Below are positions 15,065-19,853 of a stretch of 32,610 nt of DNA, piece by piece (the first letter of the stretch is position 1; the number at the start of each line of letters is the position of its first letter). The notes below the pieces were generated by a model. It ran no database searches, had not been told where the DNA came from, and saw only the letters and a program-made list of their open reading frames with translations. Position numbers and translations under genes: made by a program. Source of the DNA: Cytophagales bacterium (lineage in GTDB: Bacteria; Bacteroidota; Bacteroidia; Cytophagales; CCMP332); assembly GCA_028279065.1 (NCBI GenBank), contig JANQSY010000140.1, positions 1 to 32,610 on the forward strand, in the 5' to 3' direction.

Positions 15065-15118
15065 AGGCCCTATTTCATCAAAATATAAACCTTGAAAACT
15101 GCAACTTGGAAGGGACCT

Positions 15119-15149
15119 GAAGTCCGGAGTTGGTAGTTTGAAGTTTGAG
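15119..15149 (-). repeat. heptanucleotide array A (RRACTYC family, reverse orientation)
   Basis: Plus-strand units GAAGTCC GGAGTTG GTAGTTT GAAGTTT GAG are in exact 7-base phase; on the minus strand these read AAACTTC, AAACTAC, CAACTCC, GGACTTC. The array ends three bases from the stop codon of the four-helix-bundle gene and is inverted relative to arrays B and C. Confidence 0.75.
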
Positions 15150-15152
15150 CTA

Positions 15153-15500
15153 TTATGACTCCAATTTCTTAATCATCGAATATAGGATTCTGGAAATTTC
15201 TTCAAGATCAGAAGTCAACTTATCCCTAAGGCTCTGTTCAAGAATTGAGACTTCTTGCATGTAATCAAGGATGCTGAAACATTCAAATACACTGCCTCTG
15301 GATATTATATAAAACCTCCGTTGGTCAGCTCTGGTGAACCTGGCTGAGCCCTCTGCAATGTTTAGCATAATGCTCATTGTTGCTCGAGATAATTGGTCCG
15401 AAGCGGAGTAATCAAGTTTCAGCCTCTGCCTTAATTTCTGAATTTCAATGGCAAAGGATTTTGCCTTTTGATAGACGGTCAAGTCATTGAATTTGAACAT
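15153..15500 (-). CDS. four helix bundle protein (S23/IVP-like family)
   Basis: The 115-residue protein is entirely helical in appearance. It carries the family pattern: FNDLTVYQKAKSFAIEIQKL at the start, DQLSRATMSIMLNIAEGSAR in the middle and an SVFECFSILDYM segment later. This family (TIGR02436 type) was first noted as ORFs inside intervening sequences of 23S rRNA genes and is related in fold to the Avd accessory protein of diversity-generating retroelements. Its biochemical role is unknown. Here there is no 23S gene and no reverse transcriptase. Instead the gene is closely bracketed by inverted heptanucleotide arrays A and B, with a tRNA-Leu just outside B. The start at 15500 matches the usual family N-terminus. 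Confidence 0.88.
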   Translation of the reverse strand: MFKFNDLTVYQKAKSFAIEIQKLRQRLKLDYSASDQLSRATMSIMLNIAEGSARFTRADQRRFYIISRGSVFECFSILDYMQEVSILEQSLRDKLTSDLEEISRILYSMIKKLES

Positions 15501-15533
15501 TTTAAAAGGAATTTGTGAGTTAATAAGTTACAT

Positions 15534-15580
15534 AACTCTAACCTCAAATCAAACTCCAAACTTCGGACTCCAAACTCTTC
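15534..15580 (+). repeat. heptanucleotide array B (RRACTYC family)
   Basis: Perfect 7-base phasing at 15551-15578: AAACTCC AAACTTC GGACTCC AAACTCT, then TC; looser copies (AACTCTA, TCAAATC) lie just upstream. It ends three bases before the 3' end of tRNA-Leu and is inverted relative to array A across the four-helix-bundle gene. Confidence 0.75.
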
Positions 15581-15583
15581 TAG

Positions 15584-15667
15584 TGCCCAGGGCGGGAGTC
15601 GAACCCGCACGCTCAAATGAACACATGGCCCTCAACCATGCCTGTCTACCAGTTCCAGCACCTGGGC
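15584..15667 (-). tRNA. tRNA-Leu, anticodon GAG
   Basis: On the minus strand a complete class II tRNA folds. The acceptor GCCCAGG pairs with CCTGGGC and the discriminator is A. A D-arm with GGTAGAC is followed by anticodon stem CATGG/CCATG around the loop TTGAGGG (anticodon GAG, reading CUC/CUU). The long variable arm has stem GTTC/GAGC, and the T-arm is GCGGG-TTCGACT-CCCGC. The length of 84 with a long variable arm fits leucine. CCA is not encoded (the next bases are CTA). Heptanucleotide arrays lie on both sides. Confidence 0.93.
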
Positions 15668-15730: not shown

Positions 15731-15763
15731 CTCAAACTTCAAACTCCAAACTTCAAACTCTTC
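15731..15763 (+). repeat. heptanucleotide array C (RRACTYC family)
   Basis: Units AAACTTC AAACTCC AAACTTC AAACTCT followed by TC are in exact 7-base phase at 15734-15761. It shares the terminal word AAACTCTTC with array B and with the array inside mnmE. It lies between tRNA-Leu and the metal permease gene, in direct orientation to B. Confidence 0.75.
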
Positions 15764-18443: not shown

Positions 18444-19853
18444 TTGACCGACGGGAACAGCCCGCAGGAAGAAACGATAATAGCATTGGCTACCCCCGAG
18501 GGAACCAGTGCTATTGCTGTTTTAAGGCTCAGCGGAAAGGATACAATCTCTATTGTAAATGATTTTTTTCCTTCCAAGGACCTTCTCGCATCTCAATCTC
18601 ATACCCTCCACTTCGGAAAACTGAAAACGGAAAACGGAATCATTGATGAGGTTCTGGTATCGGTATTTAGGGCACCAAATTCTTATACAGGTGAAGATGT
18701 TATTGAGATCTCCTGCCATGGCTCCCCCCATGTGGCTAAAACCATTATCCAGCACTTCCTGGCCAGTGGTGCAAGACATGCCTCAGCAGGGGAATTTACC
18801 AAAAGGGCCTTCCTGAATGGAAAGCTCGACCTGAGTCAGGCAGAAGGGGTTGCTGATCTGATCCATTCGGATAGTGAGGCATCCAGAATTGCTGCGGTGA
18901 ATCAATTGAAAGGGGGTATCAGAGACGAGATATCGGGCCTTAGAGATGAGTTGTTAGAAATTTCAGCATTGCTTGAATTGGAGCTCGACTTCAGTGAAGA
19001 GGATGTTGAGTTTGCCGATCGCACTCAGTTGAAAGACCTGGCAGATAGAATAGAAAAAAAGATCTCCTCACTTCTGACCTCTTTCAACTACGGGAACGCC
19101 ATCAAAGATGGGATCTCTGTGGTTATTGCAGGCCCTCCCAATGTTGGTAAGTCAACCTTACTCAATGCCTTGTTGAAAGAAGAAAGGGCTATAGTATCCG
19201 ATATTCCCGGAACGACCAGGGACTTTATCGAGGACACCATTCACATTGATGGGATCAAGTTCCGCTTTACTGACACGGCTGGCATCAGGGAAACACAGGA
19301 TCAAGTAGAATCCATCGGCGTCGCCAAGACCCATGAAAAGGTCAGAGCAGCTTCTCTTGCACTATATCTTTTTGATGCCTCATCCGAGTTCAGTCCTGAG
19401 AGGATCGAAGAAGAGGTTCATACACTGGAGGGTACAAGGAATATTTTCATTCTTGGCAACAAGATTGATGAAAGCGAAGCAGATCTACCAAAGGAGATCG
19501 GGGGGTATTACGTGCTGGGAATCTCTGCAAAGGAGGGATTGGGCCTTGAGGATCTCAAGCAGGATATCTCCGACTGGATCCAAAAAGAAAAACCCCAGGG
19601 CAACCAAACCCTGGTGACCAATGCCCGGCACTACGAAGCATTCAAGAAAGCTCAAGATTCGGTAAAAGATCTTTTGGAGGGATTGGGTTCTACAAACTCC
19701 GAACTTCAAACTACAAACTCTTCAATTCGGACTTCGGACTTACTTTCAGAGGACATTCGCCAGGTATTAATGCATTTGGGGGAGATTACCGGTGAAGTTA
19801 CCAATGAAGAAGTGCTCGGAGCGATTTTCTCGCGGTTCTGCATAGGTAAATAA
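18444..19853 (+). CDS. mnmE: tRNA modification GTPase MnmE (TrmE)
   Basis: MnmE, with MnmG, installs the carboxymethylaminomethyl group at wobble U34 of several tRNAs. The 469 residues contain the N-terminal folate-binding domain (NSYTGEDVIEISCHG, about 79-93), the G domain with G1 GPPNVGKS (230-237), G2 GTTRD (256-260), G3 DTAG (277-280) and G4 NKID (339-342), and the invariant C-terminal FCIGK with Cys466. The start is a TTG at 18444 immediately after the thioredoxin stop; no ATG gives a complete N-terminus. Residues of about 417-433 are an insertion encoded by a 7-base repeat array (19694-19742) that is in frame and low in complexity (S/T/N/Q). It falls in the C-terminal helical domain before LLSEDIRQVL. 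Confidence 0.97.
   Translation: MTDGNSPQEETIIALATPEGTSAIAVLRLSGKDTISIVNDFFPSKDLLASQSHTLHFGKLKTENGIIDEVLVSVFRAPNSYTGEDVIEISCHGSPHVAKTIIQHFLASGARHASAGEFTKRAFLNGKLDLSQAEGVADLIHSDSEASRIAAVNQLKGGIRDEISGLRDELLEISALLELELDFSEEDVEFADRTQLKDLADRIEKKISSLLTSFNYGNAIKDGISVVIAGPPNVGKSTLLNALLKEERAIVSDIPGTTRDFIEDTIHIDGIKFRFTDTAGIRETQDQVESIGVAKTHEKVRAASLALYLFDASSEFSPERIEEEVHTLEGTRNIFILGNKIDESEADLPKEIGGYYVLGISAKEGLGLEDLKQDISDWIQKEKPQGNQTLVTNARHYEAFKKAQDSVKDLLEGLGSTNSELQTTNSSIRTSDLLSEDIRQVLMHLGEITGEVTNEEVLGAIFSRFCIGK
19694..19742 (+). repeat. heptanucleotide array inside the mnmE reading frame
   Basis: Seven units in exact phase: AAACTCC GAACTTC AAACTAC AAACTCT TCAATTC GGACTTC GGACTTA. It is the same RRACTYC family as arrays A-C near tRNA-Leu and shares AAACTCTTC with B and C. 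The 49 bases are read through in frame as a Ser/Thr/Asn-rich stretch. Confidence 0.8.

Follow-up and report, generated by a model that had tools for sequence, protein, structure and literature searches.

A four-helix-bundle gene between inverted heptad arrays in a Cytophagales genome: a candidate family of elements resembling intervening sequences outside rRNA genes

The element beside tRNA-Leu

The stretch analysed here, referred to as the window, comprises 32,610 nucleotides of a Cytophagales bacterium (assembly GCA_028279065.1, contig JANQSY010000140.1) and carries, next to a tRNA-Leu gene, a compact element in which a four-helix-bundle (4HB) gene is enclosed by two short tandem arrays. The gene (15153..15500, minus strand) encodes a 115-residue protein of the 23S rRNA intervening sequence protein (IVP) or S23 family, which matches PF05635 (E=2e-25) and TIGR02436 (E=2.7e-24) and no known transposase. 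On its upstream side lies array B (15550..15577, plus strand), made of four clean CRRACTY heptads (CAAACTC, CAAACTT, CGGACTC and CAAACTC on the plus strand) that read RAGTYYG in the sense of the gene. On the downstream side, array A (15120..15147, minus strand) presents CRRACTY heptads in inverted orientation relative to B, with the units CAAACTT, CAAACTA, CCAACTC and CGGACTT on the minus strand. The neighbours are an acyl-CoA dehydrogenase gene on one side and tRNA-Leu (GAG; 15583..15667, minus strand) on the other, the element starting directly past the 3' end of the tRNA in the same direction and lying outside any rRNA gene.

A preliminary description of this DNA had reported a gene flanked by heptad arrays in opposite orientation, and this was confirmed. 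Aligning the upstream array to the reverse-complemented downstream array gives a score of 17.2, compared with 7.4 in direct orientation, the paired parts being 15543-15572 in B and 15118-15149 in A, and CRRACTY arrays of this kind were absent from 20 Markov shuffles of the window. In the minimum free energy (MFE) fold of the element RNA, arrays A and B are base-paired (z = -4.0). The distances given in that description fared less evenly: the three bases between array B and the 3' end of tRNA-Leu hold approximately if a trailing partial unit is counted and become six by strict units, while the 34 bases between array B and the start codon must be replaced by about 50 for the clean array, because the heptads beside the start codon (15533-15549) are degenerate.

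The AlphaFold2 (AF2) model of the window protein consists of four helices and has a predicted local distance difference test (pLDDT) score of 95.3. By using Foldseek, the model was matched to the S23-family structures 2RLD, with a template modelling (TM) score of 0.87, and 2GSC (0.86-0.88), each with five chains; in the latter, XCC0516, five bundles are reported to assemble together (Lin 2006, as cited in PMC3936711). The model also resembles Avd, the accessory protein of diversity-generating retroelements (DGRs), with TM scores of 0.80 for 4DWL and 0.79 for 8UBE at a sequence identity of merely 8-10%, and a resemblance of PF05635 to Avd has been noted before (PMC10053308).

Paired arrays across the family

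Enrichment of heptad arrays near this family had been put forward as a test of the idea. A set of 80 PF05635 loci from GTDB genomes was chosen by protein similarity alone, and 77 of them were analysed in 130-bp flanks, using as controls 330 genes on the same contigs and, separately, 112 size-matched genes. Base identity at lag 7 reached 0.373 upstream and 0.355 downstream of the 4HB genes, compared with 0.297 and 0.291 for the 330 control genes, and further peaks stood at lags 14, 21 and 28 and at 8, 16 and 24, where the controls were flat. A period-7 segment was present in the flanks of 52% of 4HB genes and of 7% of size-matched genes, bearing out the expected enrichment; for period 8 the corresponding values were 23% and 1%. 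When the upstream flank was compared with the reverse-complemented downstream flank, 70% of the 77 loci passed (score >=14), against 10% in direct orientation, 5% of cross-locus pairs, 2% of the 330 control genes and 5% of the 112 size-matched genes. In an enlarged set of 166 genes from further genomes, 57% passed, against 1.8% after permutation. MFE folds of 59 sampled elements restate this comparison at the RNA level and are not independent of it: at least half of the upstream array was paired with the downstream array in 66%, and with swapped arms in 2%.

The arrays share a recognisable architecture. The period of array pairs is 7 in 80 of 106 cases and 8 in another 20 (100/106 for either), the number of anchors per array peaks at 4-5 with a spacing of 7 or 8, and the commonest combination is (5,5), unit counts being dependent on the alignment thresholds. 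AG is the commonest fully conserved dinucleotide. Read in the sense of the gene, the arrays contain 9% C and 24.5% G, so that a single array can hardly pair with itself, yet pairs with its partner. Four loci (L120, L103, L101 and L165) carry TTAGA-core arrays with mixed spacing of 7, 8 and 9, which suggests that the identity of the core outweighs the exact period.

Period and word are inherited together with the protein. On a tree of 95 proteins, array period requires 8 changes, against 16.7 in shuffled data, with 0 of 500 shuffles as low, and one clade (6/6 octads) unites loci from Bacteroidota, Nitrospirota, KSB1 and Lambdaproteobacteria, those outside Bacteroidota being metagenome-assembled genomes (MAGs) that are maybe mis-binned. 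The closer two proteins are in identity, the more alike are their array words (Mantel r 0.26, p 0.001), and the relation persists where the genes adjoining the two loci are not homologous (r 0.13, p 0.001). The expected covariation between array word and protein subfamily was thereby borne out, non-syntenic pairs included. The link between heptad arrays and the family is accordingly general, with the qualification that the word is specific to the locus and that octads occur besides heptads.

PF05635 is present in 90 of 118 sampled Bacteroidota genomes. At the threshold used, period-7/8 arrays were absent from 760 kb sampled from 18 Bacteroidota genomes lacking the family, whereas 734 kb from 21 genomes that have it yielded 25 such arrays after merging, distributed over 9 genomes; for other periods, genomes without PF05635 had no fewer arrays. 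The possibility raised at the outset, that arrays might be equally common in genomes without the family, was thus not borne out in this sample.

Insertion sites and dispersed copies

The elements occupy a narrow range of positions. Of the elements, 93 have near neighbours; 83 of these lie between two genes of one direction and share it, and 3 run opposite to such a pair. The median distance from the stop codon of the preceding gene, on the same strand, to the upstream array is 2 nt, and that from the end of the downstream array to the next start codon is 8 nt. This co-directional bias could come partly from selection against other positions. In three genomes (L048, L063 and L071) the 4HB gene is nested within a DNA-methyltransferase open reading frame that stays open across the insert in relative frame +2, with clear arrays flanking two of the three. 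It was considered whether the alternative frame of 4HB genes is generally open, and this was rejected, as it is open in just these three among 165 genes (mean 10.4 stops).

A single site, the fadB-fadA junction, was compared among eight congeneric species, their genus being other than that of the window. The junction is empty in one species (G071) and holds a short solo array in three and a bare inverted pair, that is, a gene-less hairpin, in two. The remaining two species have a full element: in G102 its 4HB gene is broken, and in G067 the gene is intact and the arrays use another word. At the same junction, 4HB elements or arrays were observed in several genera (L215-L222, L094, L104), and it is a possible insertion hot spot.

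Within the window itself, a solo CRRACTY array (array C, 15733..15760, plus strand) lies on the other side of tRNA-Leu, and array D (19693..19741, plus strand) lies within mnmE (18444-19853), where part of it forms a clean in-frame insertion of 11 residues (TNSELQTTNSS) in comparison with 13 relatives. Over the whole genome there are about 17 places with CRRACTY arrays, several of them inverted pairs that enclose no gene (L009, L011, L012 and L023), and the pattern with one mismatch allowed gives 30 matches, compared with 5 for a reversed control. The genome has five PF05635 genes. Scoring CRRACTY only, arrays accompany one of the five, while a word-free period scan found period-7 arrays near the four strong ones, with the words AATTAGG, GAAAACT-like, CRRACTY and TGTGATG. 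Beside one of these genes stands a perfect 11-copy TGTGATG array (L004, G000 C145:16338-16643), likely a variable-number locus. The three-unit CRRACTY word has 15 exact matches in this genome and at most 2 in each of 117 other Bacteroidota genomes, so each genome amplifies a word of its own; one universal word was therefore rejected, CRRACTY being amplified in the window's genome only. Neither RVT_1 (PF00078) nor Y1_Tnp (PF01797) was matched in the window's genome, and the same holds for G031, a genome with nine 4HB copies.

A complete genome of the same family as the window's (G001) gave a similar picture, with period-7 arrays of differing words at four loci (L036 and L038-L040). In 800 kb of it, 17 period-7 segments were counted, every other period giving 0-7, and arrays were also found within coding regions. 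Its solo arrays resemble the words of resident elements with a mean percentile of 0.75, a value confounded by AT content, and a preference for resident words is at this stage suggestive only. One of its elements (L039, G001 C1:3181218-3181526) is distinct from that of the window and has another word; it lies about 1 kb upstream of a gene orthologous to the one (15807) that comes next after the element in the window.

The family also occurs on plasmids. A tblastn search found it on 29 plasmids, mostly cyanobacterial, and all of the 11 plasmid loci inspected (from Nostoc, Calothrix, Anabaena, Geminocystis, Stanieria, Pseudanabaena, Picosynechococcus, Gemmatirosa and Azospirillum) have period-7 or period-8 arrays nearby, mostly as inverted pairs. 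These named plasmids belong to Cyanobacteria, Gemmatimonadota and Alphaproteobacteria, and for the range of phyla they are firmer records than the MAG loci. In three cases the element sits within a cas operon (L301, L308 and L309), between cas6 and cas4 on two plasmids and between cas10 and cmr3 on one; that of Pseudanabaena (L301) has very long arrays of the GCTAAAA type. Genes of the 23S_rRNA_IVP type had been reported in cas loci, including the Cmr3/Cmr2 junction of another cyanobacterium (PMC3936711), and the present cases suggest that such "cas-associated" genes are hitchhiking elements. Carriage by phages was considered and rejected, no match to the family having been obtained in viral contigs or phages.

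Interpretation and relation to known systems

Taken together, a recurrent unit is found in many Bacteroidota and on named plasmids, running from the stop codon of an upstream gene through an array, the 4HB gene and an inverted array to the start codon of a downstream gene. At a given site, some related species have the unit and others lack it; gene-less hairpins and solo arrays occur as further forms of it, and the period and word of its arrays follow the protein subfamily. The explanation that best accounts for the whole, and which we regard as probable, is a family of selfish elements that resemble 23S intervening sequences (IVSs) but sit outside rRNA genes, operon junctions being their usual place, and whose terminal arrays pair at the RNA level. 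The element would be transcribed from a host promoter, the arrays would base-pair to form a long stem whose loop holds the gene, and, by analogy with IVSs, cleavage of RNase III type could free the flanking RNAs. We propose that operon junctions, tRNA ends and rRNA loops tolerate the insert because excision leaves working RNAs. The protein, a predicted pentameric Avd-like bundle with no known catalytic residues, probably binds the array through its AG-type core, one unit of 7 or 8 nt per subunit; the five-fold ring and the arrays of 4-5 units lead us to infer this stoichiometry, which would account for the constancy of the period and for the joint inheritance of period, word and protein. The solo arrays and the hairpins that lack a gene may be derivatives of elements or copies mobilised in trans, and the two arms of one element are probably kept alike by template switching in the hairpin. 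Since neither a reverse transcriptase nor a Y1 match was found in the window's genome or in G031, strand transfer would need neither of them encoded in the same genome.

A wider proposal is advanced tentatively, with rather less than even confidence: that these are a new class of mobile element without transposase or reverse transcriptase, in which each subunit of a pentameric four-helix-bundle protein recognises one unit of a short-period array, the array spreading as elements, hairpins and solo arrays, with the protein clade setting period and word. Such elements would be a common source of bacterial heptads and octads, and the 23S IVSs would be members that landed in rRNA.

Several observations weigh against the selfish-element explanation. 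Binding of protein to array, RNA cleavage and movement are inferred rather than observed, no target-site duplication could be defined at fadB-fadA, and presence or absence at one site could partly reflect loss. At the thresholds used, paired arrays were not seen at some 30-43% of genes, and the divergent members L005, L041 and L043 lack them (L005 has a short one-sided purine run only); these cases perhaps reflect decay or divergence. The correlation between word and protein is significant yet modest, the contrast between genomes with and without PF05635 (Fisher p 0.0016) comes from a test that ignores phylogeny, and the spread over phyla is only weakly supported by the MAG loci, which are possibly mis-binned.

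Three other accounts deserve consideration. The 4HB protein might be a post-transcriptional regulator that binds its own mRNA and dispersed arrays on others, as TRAP does on (G/U)AG repeats or as CsrA does, the arrays forming its regulon. AG-type cores at fixed spacing, with 4-5 units per array, would indeed suit a ring protein on single-stranded RNA, the C-poor arrays adjoin start and stop codons, and translational regulation was proposed by MacGregor for the TAACTGA arrays (PMC4679880). A regulon does not sit well with one junction that is empty, solo, hairpin or full within a single genus, with arrays inside coding regions (mnmE and G001) or with amplification of a separate word in each genome, and we consider it unlikely. 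An origin as a type of retroelement, in which an Avd-like protein cooperates, as in DGRs, with a trans-acting reverse transcriptase and RNA is the template for the arrays, would agree with the Avd fold, with the published remark on PF05635 and with the strong co-directional bias relative to host transcription. The missing RVT_1 matches in the window's genome and in the nine-copy genome count against it, leaving it very improbable, and a dependence on reverse transcriptase or RAYT is unsupported.

Least favoured is a passive association. On this view, replication slippage or template switching creates arrays where an intergenic site tolerates them, and such sites are simply where 4HB genes insert or persist. 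Among the longer simple repeats of bacteria, heptads are reported to be the most frequent unit, and DNA polymerase slippage has been suggested as the cause (Mrazek 2007, as cited in PMC4679880). Such a process leaves unaccounted for the control genes without arrays on the same contigs, the array-free sampled genomes that lack the family, the agreement of period and word with protein clades, and the sharing of one word, inverted, by the two sides of a gene; we hold it to be very unlikely.

These results give a first general context to a very common protein family of unsolved function, offer a cause for the heptads and octads dispersed in bacterial genomes, which had lacked an evident mechanism, and tie together 23S IVSs, heptad repeats and the Avd fold. 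They also call for caution in annotation, as conserved proteins can gain array-encoded peptides such as NSELQTTNS. In the literature searched, which left subscription papers and preprints outside, no link between this family and dispersed arrays was found; IVS inserts, cas-locus copies and heptad arrays are treated separately. The preliminary suggestion of an undescribed repeat-spreading system is supported, with the spreading itself deduced from presence and absence.

The closest known counterparts are the 23S IVSs with S23p of Leptospira and Coxiella. These are closed by a stem of complementary ends and are removed from the transcript by RNase III without ligation, and the Coxiella IVS has tandem GACAGAT heptads just before S23p (PMC4990558); IVP genes also occur within 16S and 23S inserts of bacteria of the candidate phyla radiation (CPR) (PMC11270868). 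They share with the present elements the protein family, the gene in the loop, the complementary ends and a sporadic distribution. The present elements differ in lying outside rRNA genes, mostly at operon junctions, in having ends that are 7/8-periodic arrays with locus-specific words, and in being accompanied by dispersed gene-less hairpins and solo arrays.

The likeness drawn earlier to RAYT, the transposase associated with repetitive extragenic palindromic (REP) sequences and their bacterial interspersed mosaic elements (BIMEs), stands for the overall pattern, namely one protein gene between inverted repeats of a kind that recurs elsewhere in the genome, singly or in inverted pairs, with words peculiar to each genome. 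It does not extend to the enzymes: the element has no Y1/HUH transposase (PF01797), and neither this nor a reverse transcriptase was matched in the window's genome; moreover, its unit is a short tandem array, not the REP palindrome. With DGRs the protein has the Avd fold in common (TM 0.80), and the crystal structures of the S23 family (2GSC; 2RLD with five chains) are pentameric, but no reverse transcriptase, template repeat or variable repeat was seen with the element. As regards insertion sequences and miniature inverted-repeat transposable elements (MITEs), the element has inverted ends, its protein matches no known transposase, and no duplication was definable at fadB-fadA.

Two descriptions of dispersed repeats come close to the arrays themselves. 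The TAACTGA heptamer arrays of Beggiatoaceae, Cyanobacteria and Bacteroidetes, for which no transfer mechanism was evident to their author (PMC4679880), are likewise intergenic and strain-specific, have an AACT-type core and lie near start codons, rarely in open reading frames, but were described as direct repeats and linked to no protein family. In Geobacter metallireducens, dispersed sites of four or five tandem 8-mers or 7-mers, mostly in opposite-strand pairs, were read as binding sites for an unidentified global regulator (PMC2700814); by their description, they resemble the present arrays in unit number (4-5), in unit length, in their inverted pairing and in their dispersal.
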